The translations under genes were made by a program, and so were the position numbers. From the IMG/VR virus record IMGVR_UViG_3300030101_000406, positions 1-26,345 of that record: a stretch of DNA of 26,345 bases; one strand, written 5' to 3'. This DNA comes from a virus. Position 1 is the stretch's first letter. The number at the start of each line of letters is the position of its first letter. Positions 6,360 through 25,614 of this stretch are shown in pieces. The notes under the pieces were generated by a model. That model was not told where the DNA came from. It saw nothing but the letters and a program-made list of their open reading frames with translations, and did no database searches.

Positions 6360-6839
6360 CTACGATGCATCAGAGGAGCTTGATAAACCAAAAAACTTTA
6401 ACACAACTGTTGTATCTGCTCCCGGATCACCTGAAAGAACAATCTCAACTTCATCTGCTGTTTCTGTTGCAGCAGTTGTAGTTCCTCCAGACATTCCTAA
6501 AACACCATTGCAAGGGAAAAATCCCTTAAAACCTGTAGAGTTTACTGCTGCTGATATACCATCAACAAATCCATCTGTATCAGCGTCTGTGCCAATATCA
6601 TTTAAAGTTACAGAATTACTTGCAGCACCTGTGACCGCAACTGTAACCCCCATAGGAATAAAATTAGATGGTATTCCTATTGAAGACTCTTTACCAGTGG
6701 TTGCTCCATCAGCTACAGTTATTGTTGCAACGTAAGTTTCCATTGCCATTGTACTAGTGACAGCTCCACTAGAATTTTTTATAATAGTATCAAATCCATC
6801 TTGAGATCTGACGGGACCTGAAAAAGTAGAATTTGCCAT
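6360..6839 (-). CDS. Capsid decoration-type structural protein
   Basis: The 159-residue product starts MANSTFSGPVRSQDGFDTII and continues as an all-beta, Thr/Ala/Gly-rich protein (TYVATITVADGATTGKESS, VTVAVTGAASNSVTLNDIG). The first 20 residues are a signature I recall from marine phage genomes next to the major capsid gene, where proteins of this type are called structural. The start has a good GGAGAT ribosome-binding site 5-8 bases upstream. The gene is the first after a spacer that contains a promoter-like sequence, so it may also be transcribed independently of the capsid gene. The specific role (decoration or head-tail interface) is inferred. Confidence 0.65.
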   Translation of the reverse strand: MANSTFSGPVRSQDGFDTIIKNSSGAVTSTMAMETYVATITVADGATTGKESSIGIPSNFIPMGVTVAVTGAASNSVTLNDIGTDADTDGFVDGISAAVNSTGFKGFFPCNGVLGMSGGTTTAATETADEVEIVLSGDPGADTTVVLKFFGLSSSSDAS

Positions 6840-6859
6840 TTAAATCTCCTTGTCTTGGC

Positions 6860-6888
6860 TAATGTCAGTTACACGATGTAACTGTCAA
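6860..6888 (-). promoter_or_regulatory. Promoter-like element with a palindrome in the spacer
   Basis: On the minus strand TTGACA (6888-6883) is followed by exactly 17 bases and then ACATTA (6865-6860), a weak -10. The 17-base spacer, with two bases of the -35, is almost wholly a perfect 8-base inverted repeat, CAGTTACA, 3-base centre, TGTAACTG (6866-6884). That places a possible operator between the two boxes, ahead of the gene at 6360-6839. The geometry is visible; function is inferred. Confidence 0.45.
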
Positions 6889-6910
6889 GGTATTTATATT
6901 TTATAGTAAT

Positions 6911-13931: not shown

Positions 13932-16370
13932 CTATCCTTTCCTTGATGCGTTAAGTGCAGCTATATCTCTTTGTGTTTGTATTCTATCCTCTGCTACCCT
14001 TGTTTTTTCATTTAATGCTTGTTGAGAAATATTAATTCTTTCTTTTTCTAACATAGCATCTGTTTGTTCACTCTGCTTTTGCATTTCTTGCTTTTGCTCA
14101 AACTCTCTTTCTTTTCTTTGTATATCAGCACCTTTCAACGATAATTCTTGTTTTCTAATTTCTACAAGAGGATCGCCTTGATTTGGCGGTGTAACTGTTT
14201 GAGCATATTGTTCAATCATCTCACCAATAAGCTTTGATGCAACAGCTTGAACTTGTATTTGTATCTGTTGTTGCATGTTAGGATCTTGCTGTAACATTTG
14301 CTGTTGCTCAGGTGGTATTTGACTCATTACCTGCTCTTGAGCCTTTTGTTCAGCTAATAACCCTATATGTTCCTGTATATGGCCTTGTAAAGCAGCTGCT
14401 ATCGCTACATTAGCCTGTACTGGTGGTGTAGCCATAATAGCCAAATGAGCCTGTATATGCGCCTGATGATCTTGCATAGGGAATGCTTGCATCGGTTGCC
14501 CCATCAAGGCATTCTGGTTTTCTTTGGCTGGATTTAAAGGTTGTGGTTGAGGAGGTGGTGGCAAAATAGCATCAATGTTAGATACACCAAGAGCCTCGTA
14601 CATATTTCTATAAGCATGATATAATCCTTGTGGTCCACCATGAACTTGTGGATTTGATTGTACTAATTGTAATTGTGTTTGTGCTAATGTCACTCTTTGT
14701 GACATAGAGAATATATTTGGATCACTTACTGGTAATATATCGATCCTAGCATCAAAATCCTGTATTTTAATCATGGGATTAGATCCTACAGAATATGGAT
14801 ATGGCTTAGGATTATTCGCAAATATATTAGATAATAAACGAAACTCTATCTTCTGTGAGTAATGAAGGCGCTTGTGTATGGCTGACATAACTTTCGTACC
14901 ACGCTCCATAATAGCCATCGTAGTACCAACTGGCGTTTCTCCCCCCATTTCGCCAACTTTCATATCAGCCATTGACGCAAATCTCCTCCCTGCGTCCACA
15001 AGCGTACCCATAAGCTGATATAATGTGGCTGATGGCTCTTTAAAAGGTAAAGGCATTAATGAACTACGTATATCACCACTTGCTACGTCAATATCTCTAA
15101 ATTCACCAGGTTGTAATGCACTATCTTCATCTCTAATCCTAGCCCCTCTAGATTTGAAACCTGCTGGTAAGTTACTTAATGTTCCTGAATCTATCAATTG
15201 TCTAAGTATGGATGTAGATGCTTGTGCTAAACCACCTATCATATGTGTTAAACCTAAACCATAAAAGCCTAGACCTGGCATAAATTTAAAATGCACAAAA
15301 TAGTCTTTCTTTCTTTTTAATGGATCTTGCTCACCATAATTACGTCTTATTGACAATATTTCATTCGTGTCTTCTAAGATCGTAACCACATAAGGTAATT
15401 TCAATCCTGTAGGCTCACCAGATGCATCCATATCTTCAAAGCCTTCAATATCCAAATCAGTATGAACTTCATAGATAGTTAGGTCCTCTGAACTTCTATT
15501 TGGCTGTACACCCTGTATTTCATTTACAGCTTCATCAATCTGGCTATATTCGGTATCATAACCACCAGAAGGTAAATCAATCTGCTTATAAAAGCCATTT
15601 AGCTGCATTTTAAGTATTTCATTAGAATCAAGCTTAATAACGTGCGTTGTTCTTGGACTTGTTAATAAATCTGTTGCTGAATATGGAACAATTAAATCTT
15701 CAGCGTGTATAAACTTACTTACTGCCCTTTGTAACAAAGGATCAAAATATACTTTCTTAAATGTAGAACCTACAACAGGAAGATAAAACAACATTTGATC
15801 TAATTCTGGATCATACTCTTCCATCTCATAGGTAATCATGTAATTCATGTAGTCCTTGATTCTCTCAGCTTGGAGAGAGAGCTGTGGATTAGGAGAACCA
15901 AGGATCTGTGTTCTAACAGGACCACCAGAGGGTAACATCTCTCTGTATGCCTGTGCTTGAAACTGTGTAACGGCTTCTGATAGTAATGGATGAATAACGC
16001 CAGCTGCACCTTCAAAAGGTTGCGCTCTATCCTCATACTGCATACCCAAAAGCTCTAAACCTTTTTTGTATGAATCCTCCCATTCTTGCCTAGAGGATTT
16101 ATCATCATCAATACTTGCTGTTAGTTCTGATGCTATGCCTTTTAAAATAGACTCGTCTAAACTTTCTGCTATGTTGCCATCAAAAGGAACAGTAGTAACT
16201 TCTATTTCTTCTGAATACTCTCCAACAATCGCACTACCATCATCAAATTCTGTAATATTCGGCTTTTTATTTGCTTCAACGACATCAATCATCGCCTCCT
16301 GTAATTCTTTAGAGGGTTGATTGATATTATCTGGTAAACCACCGGGACCTGTTTGTGCTTCTATTGCCAT
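13932..16370 (-). CDS. Portal protein (P22-like type)
   Basis: The 812-residue protein matches large portal proteins: an N-terminal segment, then WEDSYKKGLELLGMQYEDR, FEGAAGVIHPLLSEAVTQFQ, AQAYREMLPSGGPVRTQILG and DQMLFYLPVVGSTFKKVYFD. It ends with a Gln/Met/Pro-rich low-complexity C-terminus and a coiled tail, as in podovirus portals with a long barrel. It forms the dodecameric DNA entry ring of the head. It lies downstream of TerL and the EF-hand gene, and upstream of small proteins and the head genes. The ATG at 16370 has AAGGAG 5-10 bases upstream. Expression may be affected by the structured leader just upstream. The portal family call is firm; the P22 subtype is by length and layout. 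Confidence 0.88.
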   Translation of the reverse strand: MAIEAQTGPGGLPDNINQPSKELQEAMIDVVEANKKPNITEFDDGSAIVGEYSEEIEVTTVPFDGNIAESLDESILKGIASELTASIDDDKSSRQEWEDSYKKGLELLGMQYEDRAQPFEGAAGVIHPLLSEAVTQFQAQAYREMLPSGGPVRTQILGSPNPQLSLQAERIKDYMNYMITYEMEEYDPELDQMLFYLPVVGSTFKKVYFDPLLQRAVSKFIHAEDLIVPYSATDLLTSPRTTHVIKLDSNEILKMQLNGFYKQIDLPSGGYDTEYSQIDEAVNEIQGVQPNRSSEDLTIYEVHTDLDIEGFEDMDASGEPTGLKLPYVVTILEDTNEILSIRRNYGEQDPLKRKKDYFVHFKFMPGLGFYGLGLTHMIGGLAQASTSILRQLIDSGTLSNLPAGFKSRGARIRDEDSALQPGEFRDIDVASGDIRSSLMPLPFKEPSATLYQLMGTLVDAGRRFASMADMKVGEMGGETPVGTTMAIMERGTKVMSAIHKRLHYSQKIEFRLLSNIFANNPKPYPYSVGSNPMIKIQDFDARIDILPVSDPNIFSMSQRVTLAQTQLQLVQSNPQVHGGPQGLYHAYRNMYEALGVSNIDAILPPPPQPQPLNPAKENQNALMGQPMQAFPMQDHQAHIQAHLAIMATPPVQANVAIAAALQGHIQEHIGLLAEQKAQEQVMSQIPPEQQQMLQQDPNMQQQIQIQVQAVASKLIGEMIEQYAQTVTPPNQGDPLVEIRKQELSLKGADIQRKEREFEQKQEMQKQSEQTDAMLEKERINISQQALNEKTRVAEDRIQTQRDIAALNASRKG

Positions 16371-16680: not shown

Positions 16681-18156
16681 CTAATAATATTCGTATCGTG
16701 TTGGTTTATATCGATCTTCATCTTCATAGTCAGAAGGTGTAATAATAAATCCACCTTGTCTAAATCGTAGTATAGCTTGTGTCATGCTATCTGCCAAGTC
16801 ATCATATTCACCATTTGGAAAAGAAGCACATTCCTCTACAACTTCTTCTGCAAAATTTGTATCTGGTCGCCATACCATACCACTTTCAAATACTGGAGCG
16901 CAAGCATTCATTCTGGTAAATTTATCAGAACCTCTACTTGGAGTAAAAGGTGTTACAGCAATACCCATACGTCTAAGCTCCTGTGTTAAAGGTGTACCAC
17001 TGGCTTTTTGCTCTATCAAAATCATGTCAGGATCATACATCTCCTCTAGTTCCTGTGCTTTATTTTTTAGCTCAGGAAAGTCCCATCTACCACGAACAGC
17101 ATCTAACAATACAATCGCTTCACCCTCACCATCAACAGGTTCAAAAATACCCCATGTGGTAATCGCACTATAGTCAGCTCTATCTGATTTACTAAACGCA
17201 GTATCGTAACTTTGTATTACATAAGAACACATGGGAGGTTCTTTACTCTCCCATATCTTCCACCATTCTCTTTTGATAATCGCTCCCTCTTCTGCTGTAG
17301 GATTCTGCATATACTGTGCATTCCATTTCGCTACAGGAATAGAAGCCTTAACACCCTCAAGCTCATCCAAGTTCCAGAACTCAGGCCACAGAGGTTTACC
17401 AGATGGCATAATAGCAGGAAACTCCACTACTTCCCACGTATCTGCACCAACATCACTTTGCTTATTCAATACTTTAGCTGTTAAATCACGAATACTCCAA
17501 CGAGTCATAACAATAATCAAAGATCCACCTGGCTGAAGTCTTTGTCTTGGACCTGACGTATACCATTCGTAAATATTATCTAACGCTGTAGAACTCAAAG
17601 CATCTTGCTCTGATACTGGATCGTCAATAATACAAAGGTCAGCGCCACGCCCAGCAAGAGCGCCACCGACACCCACAGCGTAATACTCGCCACCACTCGA
17701 AGTAGACCATCTGCCAGAAGCTTTTGCATCCGTAGCGAGTCTGACTTGTGGGAATACTTCTTTAAATTCAACCGAATCGATAAGGTTTTTAACTTTTCTT
17801 CCGAAGCCGACAGCCAGTTCTGCCGTGTGTGTCGCTTGAATAATTTTTTTCGTAGGATCTCTACCCATGAGCCAAGCTGGAAATAAATAGCTGGCAAACT
17901 CAGATTTAGTATGACGAGGGGGCATATTAATAATAAGACGCTTGATCTTACCATCTGCAACATCCTGTAACTTCTGAGCATATATTTTATGATGCTTGCC
18001 CTGTATGAAAGAAGGCCAAACAGATCGCACAAATTCAAGAAAGTTTTTTTCCTTCTGTTGCCTAGAATCCAGTTGGTTAAGACGCTCCACCAAAGGCGCT
18101 ATTTTGGCAAGCTCATCATCTGTAAAATACTGACTAAAGTCCTCTATTTTAGACAT
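16681..18156 (-). CDS. terL: Terminase large subunit (packaging ATPase and nuclease)
   Basis: The 491-residue protein has a Walker-A-like loop NMPPRHTKSE (residues 77-86), a Walker B LCIIDDP (174-180), a coupling-type MTRW at about 217-220, and the nuclease acidic cluster: YDTAF near 317-321, LIEQKASG and YDDLADS towards the end. It drives DNA translocation through the portal and cuts the concatemer. Length and domain order are normal. It begins directly at the stop of the 941-residue gene, overlapping one base. The small subunit is not adjacent but more than 6 kb upstream at 24223-24732, an unusual split. Confidence is high from the complete motif set. Confidence 0.95.
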   Translation of the reverse strand: MSKIEDFSQYFTDDELAKIAPLVERLNQLDSRQQKEKNFLEFVRSVWPSFIQGKHHKIYAQKLQDVADGKIKRLIINMPPRHTKSEFASYLFPAWLMGRDPTKKIIQATHTAELAVGFGRKVKNLIDSVEFKEVFPQVRLATDAKASGRWSTSSGGEYYAVGVGGALAGRGADLCIIDDPVSEQDALSSTALDNIYEWYTSGPRQRLQPGGSLIIVMTRWSIRDLTAKVLNKQSDVGADTWEVVEFPAIMPSGKPLWPEFWNLDELEGVKASIPVAKWNAQYMQNPTAEEGAIIKREWWKIWESKEPPMCSYVIQSYDTAFSKSDRADYSAITTWGIFEPVDGEGEAIVLLDAVRGRWDFPELKNKAQELEEMYDPDMILIEQKASGTPLTQELRRMGIAVTPFTPSRGSDKFTRMNACAPVFESGMVWRPDTNFAEEVVEECASFPNGEYDDLADSMTQAILRFRQGGFIITPSDYEDEDRYKPTRYEYY

Positions 18157-21025: not shown

Positions 21026-21379
21026 TTAGTATTTTGACAACATATTATCAAATTCTTTTGAAGATTGTTTTAAAATTTTCTCCAATCTATCTATATCTAC
21101 GCTACCAATACCCAATATATCATCGATTTCTTTCCTCAAAGCCTTGATTCTATTCAAATCAAACATCGAAAACCCGTCTAAAGGCTCTTTCGCTCCCAAA
21201 TTAGCCTTTACACTTTGCTCAATCGCTAAAGGAATAGGTTTTTCTCCCTTTTCATAGTAGCAATACATACGCATACCCACACCTAGCTGGTCAGCCATCT
21301 GCTGCAACGTCAATCCCAAGCTCTTACGAGCCGATTTCAGCTCCTCACCACTCATCATACTGTTGTATTTACGCTTCAT
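21026..21379 (-). CDS. XRE/Cro-type helix-turn-helix regulator
   Basis: I choose the ATG at 21379 because GGGAGAG precedes it and it overlaps the stop of the upstream gene; the upstream frame has no better start. The 117-residue protein has an HTH of the XRE type: SGEELKSARKSLGLTLQQMA, then DQLGVGMRMYCYYEKGEKP and IPLAIEQSVKANL. A second helical domain (about residues 60-117) may dimerise. It is most likely a transcription regulator of the accessory region; the AACATTTGTCAAATGTT palindrome over the -35 of its own operon (21602-21618) is a candidate autoregulatory site. No integrase is visible, so lysogeny control is not proven. Confidence 0.75.
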   Translation of the reverse strand: MKRKYNSMMSGEELKSARKSLGLTLQQMADQLGVGMRMYCYYEKGEKPIPLAIEQSVKANLGAKEPLDGFSMFDLNRIKALRKEIDDILGIGSVDIDRLEKILKQSSKEFDNMLSKY

Positions 21380-21579
21380 ATCTCTCTCCCTTCCAATTTT
21401 ATTTCCTGACATAGCGCCTTTACATGGTAAACAGATGGCTCATCAAACAAAATTAACGCTTTTTCTTGTGAAATAGCCAAACAATCGTCCCAATTGTCGT
21501 AGAACTCCCAATTTCTAGTGACAACCATGCAACTTTCGGCAAAAACACTCGAACATATCAGTATAATTGGCATAAACAT
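21376..21579 (-). CDS. Small secreted protein, coupled to the HTH gene
   Basis: The ATG at 21579 gives 67 residues; the longer TTG start at 21594 would lie upstream of the predicted transcription start. The N-terminus is a signal peptide (MFMPIILICSSVFA, cut before ESC). The mature protein of about 53 residues has three cysteines (ESC, DDC, ALC) and several aromatic residues (NWEFYDNWDDC), so a periplasmic disulphide-bonded peptide is likely. Its stop overlaps the HTH start (ATGA type). I recognise no family. A role in superinfection exclusion or host envelope change is possible by analogy with secreted phage peptides; not demonstrated. Confidence 0.6.
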   Translation of the reverse strand: MFMPIILICSSVFAESCMVVTRNWEFYDNWDDCLAISQEKALILFDEPSVYHVKALCQEIKLEGREI

Positions 21580-21737: not shown

Positions 21738-21750
21738 GCACAATTGTTCG
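21738..21750. repeat. Outlying copy of the AACAATTGTT palindrome family
   Basis: GCACAATTGTTCG at 21738-21750 is a member of the palindromic site family that is concentrated at 23088-25044. It lies in the 21619-21780 gap, which is otherwise GC-rich in part (GGGGGGTCCC at about 21675, then CCCGACCC) and holds no ORF I can support. Confidence 0.6.
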
Positions 21751-21832: not shown

Positions 21833-22996
21833 TCATGAAAACCTATTAATTAATCTATTGTATACATCATGATCTAGACCATAATGAACATGAGCAGAAC
21901 CAATTCTATTTGGTGGTAAATAACTTTCTACATTATTAGATAATGTTCTAGTTATTGTATATTCTTGAGCTAACTCATAGCCATTTAAATTATATAAACC
22001 ATTGCTTGCACCATACACATTATTGTAATGTTGTTGGTTATAGGTCGCAATTGCTTGCGGATTATCTCCTAGTCTATCATCTCTTCTCATTTCAGAAATT
22101 CTAGCTCTATCCCACCTTAAACCTTGTCTATTTAATTCATCTTCTAATTCAATGGCCGTTGCGCCACCAGTGCGAGAAATCATCTCATATATGGCGTGGT
22201 ATGTAGTATTGGATCTAAATGGGTTTCTTGTGGGTCTGGTCCACGTTGTAGTTTCCTGAGTAGTGCCAGAACCTAAAGTAATTCTATTCTTAACAGTGTG
22301 ATCAATCATATTAAGTAAGAATGTACACCAATCAATAATCTTCTCAGCAACAATTGTTCCATCTCTTTGTCTAAACTCAATAGTCTCTTTTGATGATGTT
22401 AGAGGAATAAAATTTACTGCATAAAACTTATTAGAGCCTTGTATTCTTGCCAATTCATCAATGGTATTAGCATTCATTATTTTATCAAGATAATTACTCA
22501 TTTTTTTTGCATAATAGTTATTGTGTCTGCTAGGCGCTAAAGTAGTACATATCTCAGCAAAGTGATCATAATATCTAATACCAATGTCTTTAAGCGCTAA
22601 CAGTGATATTTGATTAGTATAATCTAGCATCGCTAAAACTTCAGCTTTATTAGTTGAAAATTTATCCCAAGATAGATGATTAAATGAAACGGGATCTACT
22701 GTGCTAGCTAATTGTCTAGATGATACGTGGACGTGTAAACCACACTTAGAATTGATTTTAGCACTAATGGCATTCAATTTATCTTCTATTAACTTATATT
22801 TTTCTATAGCAAATTCATTTAATATCATTGGTGGCATATTAATTTCGAAAATTTGCTCAGAATTTGGTGTGGCATCGTATTTTAAAACCACATGATCCAT
22901 AATCTCAGAACCTAATAATCTAGATACATCACGTAAACTATTAGTGTTTTCTACTGTAAATTCTTTTTCTACACTAAATAAATAATTGTAAGTCAT
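21833..22996 (-). CDS. Amidoligase (GCS-like COOH-NH2 ligase, Amidoligase_2 type) with a winged-helix-like tail
   Basis: The ATG at 22996 is chosen: it starts just before the conserved FSVEKEF and has AAAGGT upstream, whereas an upstream extension is Cys-rich and unlike the family. The 387-residue protein shows E10/E12 of the metal-binding ExE motif, a D41...EINMPP (E51) stretch, HVH at 88-90 in GLHVHV, FYAVNFIPL, and ETIEFRQRDGT (E204-R209) near 203-213: the full set for a GCS-fold amidoligase that joins a carboxylate to an amine using ATP. Residues about 262-310 (YHAIYEMISRTGGATAIELE to SEMRRDDRLG) look like a winged helix. The substrate is unknown. It has its own promoter and terminator. 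See the finding on pairing with the cyclotransferase at 25114. Confidence 0.82.
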   Translation of the reverse strand: MTYNYLFSVEKEFTVENTNSLRDVSRLLGSEIMDHVVLKYDATPNSEQIFEINMPPMILNEFAIEKYKLIEDKLNAISAKINSKCGLHVHVSSRQLASTVDPVSFNHLSWDKFSTNKAEVLAMLDYTNQISLLALKDIGIRYYDHFAEICTTLAPSRHNNYYAKKMSNYLDKIMNANTIDELARIQGSNKFYAVNFIPLTSSKETIEFRQRDGTIVAEKIIDWCTFLLNMIDHTVKNRITLGSGTTQETTTWTRPTRNPFRSNTTYHAIYEMISRTGGATAIELEDELNRQGLRWDRARISEMRRDDRLGDNPQAIATYNQQHYNNVYGASNGLYNLNGYELAQEYTITRTLSNNVESYLPPNRIGSAHVHYGLDHDVYNRLINRFS

Positions 22997-23087: not shown

Positions 23088-23290
23088 TACAATTGTTCGG
23101 ATTTTTTTTATTGGATATCCAGCCAGCTTTTTTTTACCAGCTGGTAAACACGAACAATTGTTCGGATTATTTTTAAAAAAATAGCTGGGAAAAAATCCAG
23201 CTTTTTTTGTTGTGTTTTTTTTGGTGTGTTTTTTTTGGGCTGGGGTTCGGATCTATTTAAGACCCGATAAAACCCGAACCCCGAACCCCG
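23088..23290. repeat. Palindrome cluster in the spacer upstream of the amidoligase promoter
   Basis: The 300-base gap from the amidoligase start to the micropeptide holds, from left to right: TACAATTGTTCGG (23088-23100), a 16-base perfect palindrome TTTACCAG/CTGGTAAA (23133-23148), CGAACAATTGTTCG (23151-23164, 14-base perfect), a stem AGCTGG...CCAGCT with a T run on the plus strand (about 23183-23208), and GGGGTTCGG (23242-23250) paired with CCGAACCCC (23274-23282). No gene is seen here. A control region or origin is the likely use; inferred. Confidence 0.65.
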
Positions 23291-23297
23291 ACCCGAC

Positions 23298-23381
23298 TTA
23301 CAAGGCCAGCCCGATTGCTATGATCATATAAATCATAACTAATAAAAACACCGATTGTAATAAGGCTAATACTTTTAACAT
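23298..23381 (-). CDS. 27-residue membrane micropeptide
   Basis: The ATG at 23381 overlaps the stop of the 99-residue gene by one base (TAATG), the same coupling seen for confirmed neighbours in this genome. The peptide MLKVLALLQSVF then LLVMIYMIIAIGLAL is almost entirely hydrophobic, with one Lys near the start: a single membrane span. No family is known to me. Position and coupling support translation; the function may be a membrane-perturbing or toxin-like peptide, or simply a membrane anchor, which is speculation. Confidence 0.5.
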   Translation of the reverse strand: MLKVLALLQSVFLLVMIYMIIAIGLAL

Positions 23382-23680
23382 TATAGCCACCTTTGTTTGA
23401 TTGCATACCCATCCCCGTACAGTTCCGAAGATAAATGATGCACTAAGTGAAAACCCATATCCATACCGCAACCCGATATCCCAACCGAGTTCGTCTTATC
23501 TTTATAAGTATAGCCTAAAAGTTTGGCAATATTATAAGATTGATTGAGAAGGTTGTCACCCGATTTAACAATAATAGAAATGTGTCTGTACATTCCTGAA
23601 GGTGAAACCTTTCTAACTACTGTGTGAACAGTGTCACCCTTTTTGATTTGGCTTTTTAAAGTTTCTTTAATTTCTTCCAT
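23381..23680 (-). CDS. Conserved phage protein of unknown function (SGMYRHI / CGMDMGFHLVH motifs)
   Basis: I choose the ATG at 23680 (99 residues), with AAGGAGC about 9-10 bases upstream. The motifs SPSGMYRHISIIV, LGYTYKDKTNSVGISGCGMD and MGFHLVHHLSSELYGDGYAI match a family that is widespread in phages and bacteria and often annotated as hypothetical; the CGMDMGFHLVH block is a signature. No enzymatic function is established. It has a promoter about 35-60 bases upstream and is followed by the 27-residue micropeptide. A regulator or host-takeover protein is possible; not supported further. Confidence 0.7.
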   Translation of the reverse strand: MEEIKETLKSQIKKGDTVHTVVRKVSPSGMYRHISIIVKSGDNLLNQSYNIAKLLGYTYKDKTNSVGISGCGMDMGFHLVHHLSSELYGDGYAIKQRWL

Positions 23681-23713
23681 AGCTTTTAAGCTCCTTTGTT
23701 TTACTAATACCAC

Positions 23714-23742
23714 AAATTACCATATATATTATATAGTGTCAA
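23714..23742 (-). promoter_or_regulatory. Promoter of the 99-residue gene
   Basis: TTGACA (23742-23737), 17 bases, TAATTT (23719-23714) on the minus strand, with an AT-rich spacer. It lies 35 bases before the start codon at 23680 and directly after the GC-rich repeat array. Confidence 0.6.
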
Positions 23743-23779
23743 CAACTTTTTTTCAAAGTGTGGCGTGTCGAAAAAGGGA

Positions 23780-24120
23780 GTAGCTGCATGGAAGCGTCCG
23801 GGAAAAAACCCGCACAATTGTGCAAGTCTTCCTGGTGACAGCTGCCTGGGAACTGCTGCCAGGACCAACCGGCTGCCTGGGATATAAAACCGCACAATTG
23901 TGCAAATAGATTCCTGGAGGCAGCAGCTCCAGGGAACAACCTGCTGCCTGGGGTGTAAACCCGAACAATTGTGCTGGCCGGTCTTCCCCTGGAGGTCCGA
24001 AGTGCTGTTGCTGCCTGGGGCAGCGACCCAGTTCCCTGGCTGCCAGGGCTGCCGGAAGCCCGACCCCGAACAATTGTGCGGTGCTGCAAATGTCCCGAGT
24101 TGTCCCGATGTCCCGATTCT
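23780..24120. repeat. GC-rich palindrome/hairpin array next to terS
   Basis: This gap (23743-24222) has no convincing gene. It holds four copies of a palindromic box: GCACAATTGTGC at 23812-23823 and 23892-23903, GAACAATTGTGC at 23963-23974 and 24068-24079, spaced 80, 71 and 105 bases. Between boxes lie CCTGG/CTGCC hairpins: CCTGGAG..CTCCAGG (23913-23933), GCTGCC TGG GGCAGC (24010-24024) and CCCTGG CTG CCAGGG (24034-24048). Three TGTCCCGA direct repeats follow at 24091, 24101 and 24109. All three minus-strand frames stay open here only because of the GC content. It is a candidate origin, packaging or control site. Confidence 0.75.
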
Positions 24121-24222
24121 GGTGAGAATAGATACTTCTGGTAACTTTGGCATTGGAACAACACCCTTCACCAGCCCGATTCTGCTCCGTCCTGCTGGTA
24201 AACCCAAGTTATCCCGAACAAT

Positions 24223-24732
24223 TTATTGAACTGTGTTATCTTCTACTATCAGAGGCTCGGATTCTTGCGCTGGCGTGATATCCTTCATACGTTGCTGGGC
24301 TATTTTCATAAAATCGCCAAGTTTTTCTAACAATTGCTCCCGAGTCATAGCGTCAACATTCTCATGTTTGACATGGCTTTTATTAATCAGTAGTCCAGTG
24401 GCCTTTAATCTTAGCTCCTCGGCCCGTATTGCATCACCGAACTTCCCGACCATCATCGCTTGATCCCGTATGTGCTGTAAATCCCGAACAGATTTAGCTA
24501 CAGTCACCCCGAACTTGCTTTCTAGCTCCTGTCGCATCTCTTCCAGTCGTTCCTGTATGATCGGCCTTCTGAGAAGCCGAACAGCGTCTACTGTTGGATT
24601 GGCGTATCCTGCTGATCTCGCAGAAGCTGTCTGAGTCATGTCCTTATGAACATAGTTATCCAGAAACTCCTGCTGTTGTTTTGTTATTCTCCTGTTGTCT
24701 TTATGCTTTGAAGGTTCACCGAACTTTGACAT
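24223..24732 (-). CDS. terS: Terminase small subunit
   Basis: I favour the ATG at 24732 (169 residues, AGGAG 11 bases upstream) over the ATG at 24771, which has no ribosome-binding site. The N-terminal part reads ITKQQQEFLDNYVHKDMTQT, then ASARSAGYANPTVDAVRLLR and RPIIQERLEEMRQELE: the HTH-type DNA-recognition domain of the Terminase_2-like small subunits. The rest is helical, with VRDLQHIRDQAMMVGKFGDA, fitting the oligomerisation core. It recognises the packaging site for TerL. A CCCGAACAATT copy (24733-24741) lies directly at the start codon and another overlaps the stop (24213-24225). It is about 6 kb from terL, with accessory genes between. Confidence 0.85.
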   Translation of the reverse strand: MSKFGEPSKHKDNRRITKQQQEFLDNYVHKDMTQTASARSAGYANPTVDAVRLLRRPIIQERLEEMRQELESKFGVTVAKSVRDLQHIRDQAMMVGKFGDAIRAEELRLKATGLLINKSHVKHENVDAMTREQLLEKLGDFMKIAQQRMKDITPAQESEPLIVEDNTVQ

Positions 24733-24801
24733 CCCGAACAATTCTCCTGTTATTACTGCTGGTCCTATCATACAGCTACAGGTGAAGTTATCAAGTCTTT
24801 T

Positions 24802-25020
24802 GGTATGGTGGTGGTGGGGGACGTACTACAGTCCCCACCATACCCCTGTAAGGGGTGTACCACACTGTAGTAAATAGTTTGTTTAAAATCAATAACTTAC
24901 ACCGAAAACTTAACTGTAGTCTAGCCCGAACTGTACAACTGTAGTAAACCCCCGAACCCCTTACAAATAAGGTGTTTGCGAACTACAGTGTGACGAACTA
25001 CAGTGTACTGCAGTTTGTAG
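24802..25020. repeat. Hairpins and ACTACAGT/ACTGTAGT iterons upstream of terS
   Basis: The 340-base gap between terS and the cyclotransferase gene has no gene. It contains a long hairpin (GGTATGGTGG at 24802-24811 with CCACCATACC at 24835-24844), a small one (ACCCCT gta AGGGGT, 24842-24856), and six copies of an octamer: ACTACAGT at 24825, 24982 and 24997, and ACTGTAGT at 24864, 24913 and 24938. CGAACTACAGTGT is a 15-base-period direct repeat at 24979 and 24994. The two orientations are clustered. A replication origin, packaging site or operator array is possible. Confidence 0.65.
24864..24966 (-). promoter_or_regulatory. Two candidate promoters of terS with the iteron as -10
   Basis: On the minus strand TTGATT (24892-24887), 17 bases, TACAGT (24869-24864), and TTGTAA (24966-24961), 17 bases, TACAGT (24943-24938). 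Both use the ACTACAGT octamer as -10 and the same 29-base geometry, about 130 and 205 bases before the terS start. The -35 boxes are imperfect, so these are tentative. Confidence 0.35.
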
Positions 25021-25057
25021 TTGTAGTTCACCCGAACAATTATACGGAAGCAGCAGC

Positions 25058-25113: not shown

Positions 25114-25614
25114 TTACTTAGTCTTAACATCATACCACCAATCACCCTTTCTGTAACCAAAAAAATCATAATCGTTAACAGTTTTTTCTCTGGCCTCTGC
25201 CAAAGCTTTGCGAAGGTGCTTGTCGTCAAGTCCGAAGTCAGCATAACCCTCTTTGATGACATCGTAATAGAACCTGCTTGGCTCTGAGATACCTTTGTGA
25301 TTCATCATGTATGTCATCACTGTGCGATCATGGAAGATGTTATCTCTGAAGTAATGTCGTCTGTATAAACCATTGCCTATTTTAGATACACCCTCATAGC
25401 GATCAAGAGCGATCAAACATTTGTCAGTAATCTCCCATAATCCGATAGGTAGATAGCTACCCTTGGATGGCTCGATGTCAGCTACACCCCTAAACACAAG
25501 CTTGAAATCTGGTAAGATAAAGCCGTGTATAGGTCTTGCATCTGGACAACGATTAGCCATTTGACCAATGTTCATATTAGAACCATAGGCCATATATAAT
25601 GTTTTGTTTGTCAT
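25114..25614 (-). CDS. Gamma-glutamyl-cyclotransferase-like protein (GGCT/AIG2/BtrG type)
   Basis: The 166-residue protein has the hallmark YGSNM at residues 10-14 (MTNKTLYMAYGSNMN), the conserved FRGVADIEPSKGSYLPIGLW stretch, and an Asp-Arg-Tyr-Glu segment with E74 in LDRYEGV at the place of the catalytic Glu. These are the substrate loop and acid of the cyclotransferase fold, which removes gamma-glutamyl groups as 5-oxoproline. The C-terminal half (ending YDFFGYRKGDWWYDVKTK) is of usual length. It has an ideal promoter and an AAGGAGG ribosome-binding site, and is divergent from the plus-strand operon. The likely substrate is a gamma-glutamyl- or aminoacyl-tagged molecule, possibly made by the amidoligase at 21833; this link is inferred. 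Confidence 0.82.
   Translation of the reverse strand: MTNKTLYMAYGSNMNIGQMANRCPDARPIHGFILPDFKLVFRGVADIEPSKGSYLPIGLWEITDKCLIALDRYEGVSKIGNGLYRRHYFRDNIFHDRTVMTYMMNHKGISEPSRFYYDVIKEGYADFGLDDKHLRKALAEAREKTVNDYDFFGYRKGDWWYDVKTK

Follow-up and report, generated by a model that had tools for sequence, protein, structure and literature searches.

The stretch of DNA analysed here (the window) comprises the full 26,345 bases of an IMG/VR virus record. Its terminase genes, terS for the small subunit (24223–24771; PF03592, phrog_51) and terL for the large subunit (16681–18156), both lie on the minus strand, and directions are stated below in terS orientation, the reverse of the window. The terL protein matches those of phage DSL-LC04 (61%), Pelagibacter phage HTVC027P (59%), phage 023Pt_psg01 (59%) and HTVC023P (55%), and the window therefore belongs to the HTVC023P-type podophages, a group of widespread marine viruses. 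The portal protein (13932–16370, minus strand) is related to that of phage SU10 (PF23899). A gene for a gamma-glutamyl cyclotransferase (25114–25614, minus strand) and one for an amidoligase-like protein (21833–22996, minus strand; PF12224, glutamine-synthetase/GCS-like fold) flank terS and the array described below, and the pair occurs in most of the relatives fetched. A gene for an XRE-type helix-turn-helix protein (21026–21412, minus strand; PF01381) is restricted to the clade of the window and some relatives.

Directly downstream of terS is a GC-rich, non-coding island (23780–24120, minus strand) with boxes 71 to 105 bp apart, spacers rich in CCTGG/GGCAGC, and TCGGG pentamers. The first-pass annotation had described four boxes in a GC-rich island of an AT-rich genome, and both statements stand. 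The positions given for the four boxes, each of 12 bp, are exact: boxes 1 and 2 (23812–23823 and 23892–23903) are the perfect palindrome GCACAATTGTGC, and boxes 3 and 4 (23963–23974 and 24068–24079, minus strand) read GCACAATTGTTCGGG in the terS direction (GAACAATTGTGC on the plus strand). The GC fraction is 0.589 in the island (against 0.371). Allowing up to two mismatches, the box pattern is found 12 times in the window as opposed to 1.4 ± 1.1 times in dinucleotide shuffles (maximum 5), and four of the eight window matches to MACAATTGTK fall inside the 341-bp island, a 68-fold density relative to the rest of the window. Between the island and a tandem pentamer cluster lies a small gene (phrog_12365; 23381–23713, minus strand).

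The view that the island holds no convincing gene was borne out. Its open reading frames have no Pfam or PHROG match, and compared with L008, the closest relative, whose TerS is identical, indels of 19, 1, 73 and 11 nt break every frame; on these two grounds we consider the island non-coding and rule out a coding role. The 73-nt indel corresponds to approximately one box-plus-spacer unit, so that the copy number differs between the window and L008 by whole box units. A CRISPR-like or tandem protein-coding repeat was rejected as well, given the lack of coding continuity and of regular repeat-spacer units (spacings of 80, 71 and 105). The only RNA family found in the window, Mu-gpT-DE (RF03012, 68.5 bits, Rfam match), is located elsewhere, at 6837–6890 on the minus strand. 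The CCTGG/CTGCC hairpins reported between the boxes fared less well. Their words are strongly enriched, CCTGG/CCAGG being 73-fold and GCTGCC/GGCAGC 106-fold denser in the island, which folds better than shuffled sequence (z about −2.8). The hairpins themselves are not conserved: relatives L009 and L010 keep three boxes and have no CCTGG hairpins, indicating that these are spacer material rather than a conserved feature. The annotation had named a conserved protein encoded across the island, or absence of the array in close relatives, as evidence against its reading; no such protein is encoded, and virtually every relative has the array.

Boxes aligned across relatives give the dyad consensus TAACCCGA-n-AAATTGTTCGGGTTA; others take the form CCGAACAATTGTTC. 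The centre is AATT in 72 of 78 GAACnnnnGTTC sites. Exact ACAATTGT cores in the pooled loci occur almost only at +0.5 to +3.5 kb, and in the fetched relatives the boxes keep to the ~3.5 kb that follow terS. An unbiased search of 2.9 million viral contigs for CGAACAATTGTTCGGG recovered 75 new loci, of which 67 have genes of this phage group and the other eight are single, isolated matches. Some boxes match a terminator pattern. We rejected the boxes as pure terminators, since the stem is interrupted in half-changed boxes (GCAC/GTTC) and the central AATT is fixed. A host regulon was rejected as well: among the matches listed, the 16-bp box appears in scattered bacterial taxa with one site each. 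The Gram-positive-type LexA box is GAAC-N4-GTTC, and the box core GAACAATTGTTC fits it; unlike LexA boxes, however, the present family almost always has AATT at the centre, longer conserved flanks and common GCAC half-sites, and its bacterial matches, among those listed, are taxonomically scattered.

The boxes are one layer of a larger element. A one-strand TCGGG field and a tandem cluster, both absent from the first-pass annotation, form a second. The plus strand of the window contains 26 copies of CCCGA (TCGGG in the terS direction) versus four of TCGGG, and 24 of the 26 minus-strand copies lie in a polar TCGGG/GTTCGGG field at 23263–25037. At its distal end six tandem copies (23263–23314, minus strand) are followed, in the terS direction, by an A-rich tract.

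Pentamer statistics were compiled from 80 loci retrieved for the similarity of their TerS proteins. After correction for composition, TCGGG scores highest of all pentamers in 78 of these, and its density follows a gradient relative to the terS start: 0.3/kb at −8 kb, 2–5/kb from about −7 to −1.5 kb, a peak of 19.2/kb at +0.5 to +1 kb (a 500-bp bin covering the terS end and the DNA past terS), 6–10/kb as far as +2 kb, and none past +4.5 kb. Density on the reverse strand is low throughout, the box region excepted. Upstream there are 733 copies versus 137 on the other strand, about 99-fold over the downstream DNA. The tandem runs, (TCGGGn)6–12, are found about 1.2–2.5 kb beyond the start of terS, and AT- or CA-rich tracts come after them. 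In upstream coding DNA the pentamer is bare, with little flanking information other than avoidance of C at −1. In G001, a 55-kb contig, 39 of 44 copies are within 44.0–51.5 kb, and those in the primase-helicase gene occupy all three frames; in G007 the copies run across opposite-strand genes. Codon use therefore fails to explain the field. Alignments of coding DNA between relatives show TCGGG kept at 63% of sites, as opposed to 49% for its own permutations (Fisher p=0.01, two-way counts halved). Scans for tandem TCGGA and TCGGG patterns each returned at least 120 matches, and few of those listed are recognisable as this phage family.

The array is kept in hundreds of relatives and the word differs between lineages. 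In HTVC027P the interval from terS to terL contains tandem (GCTTGNN)n and every one of the 16 forward copies of GCTTGNNGCTTG in that genome; 023Pt_psg01 has GCTCG/GCTTG runs in the same interval. A blind scan of viral contigs for (GCTTGNN)4 gave at least 80 matches; HTVC027P-type genes are present on 79 of the 80 contigs listed, with terS mostly beside the array. Pentamer polarity matches the terL strand in 20 of 20 cases in the SAR11 branch, in which terS is on the opposite strand (66 of 67), and in 16 of 17 cases in the TCGGG branch, in which terS is on the same strand (140 of 140). Since terL is followed even where terS is inverted, polarity is a property of genome direction and not of the terS gene.

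A concerted switch of the word is seen between two close relatives, L012 and L013, which are 85–86% identical in DNA. L012 contains 34 copies of TCGGG, and L013 only three, together with 26 copies of TCGGA that include a tandem array; in the zone the L013 TCGGA copies are polar at 25:3 (p about 1e-16 versus the rest of the contig). None of eight aligned L012 TCGGG sites is kept in L013, versus 26 of 81 permuted words (p=0.055). The two TerS proteins share 94% identity and do not differ in the predicted recognition helix, which makes TerS an unlikely reader of the fifth base.

This bears on the nature of the site, for which the first-pass annotation had offered an origin of replication, a pac site or a site-specific regulator array. 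That class is still the right one, although the hairpins are no conserved part of the element and the palindromes are secondary to the polar pentamer. Phage pac and cosB regions contain repeated TerS-binding elements, such as the P1 pac hexamers, the lambda R sites and SPP1 pacL. As in those regions, short elements are repeated at or beside terS in non-coding or overlapping DNA, and the location, together with conservation in relatives, is that of a pac site. Recognition is where the likeness ends. A pac site would naturally be read by TerS, yet the word changes between L012 and L013 without a change in the predicted TerS recognition helix, which argues against recognition of the pentamer by TerS. 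The bare pentamer also extends over about 9 kb on one strand, unlike pac or cosB elements. We know of no pac or ori that resembles a bare-pentamer field reaching 7 kb. The ends of near-complete contigs scatter around terS (−1.3, +0.5, +2.5 and +5.7 kb), and thus a fixed terminus is not indicated.

Our best explanation, to which we give slightly less than an even chance, is that HTVC023P-type podophages have a cis-acting zone for DNA processing, with the island as its core, and that packaging, or the replication that feeds it, most likely starts there. A phage-encoded, sequence-specific protein would bind the dyad boxes and the tandem pentamers, and the one-directional pentamers would mark the two sides of the start point in such a manner that the structural-gene side is taken. 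The zone would act in packaging or in replication, its polarity setting the direction, and the reader is probably a phage protein other than TerS. No cis-acting packaging or replication start site of HTVC023P-type phages has been reported in the literature searched, and the array would provide an exact address and a direction for such a site.

A strict replication origin is a narrower alternative. Here the tandem TCGGG iterons beside a low-melting AT/CA tract would be opened by a Toprim-AAA primase-helicase encoded upstream, in the manner of the P4 alpha protein. Origins consisting of iterons and an AT-rich element are found in phages and plasmids, lambda ori and P4 ori among them, and the present arrangement may be comparable: in most relatives (TA)n/(CA)n tracts come after the tandem pentamers, and the primase-helicase gene (PF13481, PF13155) is about 2.3–7 kb upstream. 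Iterons, however, usually measure 9–22 bp, longer than the 5-bp word here, and do not extend across kilobases of coding DNA. The SAR11 branch also has an array although its T7-like primase and helicase are separate, only in some genomes does a duplex-stability minimum coincide with the tandem array, and there is no consistent skew switch or stability minimum. The primase-helicases of L012 and L013 are 90% identical over 639 residues, and in L013, the TCGGA phage, what looks like a frameshift with a deletion interrupts the C-terminal domain (L013:1015–3130 versus L012); this could be an assembly error. We considered this domain as the pentamer reader and rejected it: its change in L013 fits, but TCGGG phages differ more in this domain than in any other part of the protein. 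Taken as a whole, we regard a strict origin as very unlikely.

A second alternative attributes the pentamer to the host, as a Chi-like recombination hotspot of RecBCD or AddAB, with the dyad boxes as a separate element. Copies would be situated on the strand that is 3′-terminated at an end made near the packaging site, where they would protect the unpackaged end and promote recombination. In lambdoid phages Chi is concentrated between the origin or replication genes and cos or the terminase genes (Bobay et al. 2013, PMC3784561). Recognition of Chi by AddAB is directional and takes place on the 3′-terminated strand, and arrays of Chi are functional (PMC5443536). The field described here is likewise a bare, strand-polar, asymmetric word clustered between the replication genes and the packaging region and densest near terS; its orientation is as expected if the end to be protected is made on the downstream side of the array, and the strand-polar clustering of Chi is seen, next to a DNA end that would have to be made there. 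In phage P1, used as a control, Chi is polar at 10:3 in the 15 kb left of pac (p=0.046). Array density and tandem runs, however, far exceed those of lambdoid Chi clusters, and the host side fits poorly in the SAR11 branch. In one SAR11-type genome, found by a 16S probe and read over 1.2 of 1.32 Mb, GCTTG has an O/E of 0.99 and a strand skew of −0.01, although this genome may not be that of HTVC027P's own host strain. The AddB/RecB-type nuclease PF12705 is missing in two of two SAR11 genomes versus present in 12 of 14 controls, and the matches listed in the GCTTG-array scan are from one phage group and include no unrelated SAR11 phages. For the host of the TCGGG branch, no close terL was found in two sets of 385 and 369 genomes. 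We consider the Chi reading unlikely: it is disfavoured as a general explanation and possible for the TCGGG branch, in which it would reveal a recombination hotspot of uncultured hosts.

Returning to the DNA-processing zone, a more specific form would be a phage-encoded directional code, in which copies of a five-base word form a one-strand gradient over several kilobases toward a centre of dyad boxes and tandem arrays. A phage protein that is not TerS would read the word, the code would give packaging or replication its direction, and a change of word between lineages would be matched by a change of reader. We find this form conceivable and put it forward with considerable doubt. Its logic would be that of KOPS or Chi, with the difference that it is viral and local. 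If the reader is viral, the zone would represent a polar motif field of a kind so far known mainly in host systems (Chi, KOPS), and the TCGGG, TCGGA and GCTTG lineages constitute a natural experiment for finding the reader protein.

One candidate reader is the amidoligase, which has a C-terminal helix-turn-helix-like segment and whose gene is bracketed by boxes in the window, with GAACAATTGTTC upstream (23152–23163) and GCACAATTGTTC after it (21738–21749, plus strand). The segment matches DUF3489 in 29 of 53 proteins and HTH_23 or HTH_24 in a few. An AlphaFold model of the window protein (mean pLDDT 92.8) has C-terminal helices at residues 265–273, 281–288 and 293–304; in a fold search the body resembled glutamine synthetase and YbdK/GCS folds, and the C-terminal helices had no separate match. 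Amidoligases of TCGGG phages share this segment, in which one acidic residue is almost invariant (R..[IV]SE.R; four sequences were unmatched and unscored and two matched elsewhere). In L013, which has only a 28%-identical version of the gene, that residue is Asn. This co-variation is a single event, and we treat it as a lead only.

The same protein could instead be a regulator. Under this reading the dyad boxes are operators bound by the amidoligase or, in the window's clade, by the XRE protein, a box being present ~330 bp upstream of the XRE start, and they would control an array-side promoter and the amidoligase operon. The palindromic form and fixed centre of the boxes would suit such a function, as would their occurrence before and after the amidoligase gene, the helix-turn-helix-like segment shared by the amidoligases of TCGGG phages, and a sigma-70-like promoter sequence directly after the array (23705–23756, minus strand; 11 of 12 matches). 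A recurrent box site within the amidoligase gene adds nothing to this, being accounted for by T-I-V codons on inspection of the sequence, and the L013 substitution is subject to the limit given above. The XRE gene, moreover, is absent from phages that have boxes (G007), and operators leave the frame-independent pentamer field and the tandem arrays unexplained. On balance we think it improbable that the boxes are operators of this kind.

Near the zone L012 and L013 have apparently different DNA methyltransferase genes, as judged by translation only (L012:9151–10089 and L013:5524–6687). In the SAR11 branch a GP88-family gene (PF17338; L340:16750–17349 and L342:15553–16152) is situated within the region of the pentamer array, at the place taken by the amidoligase gene in the TCGGG branch.
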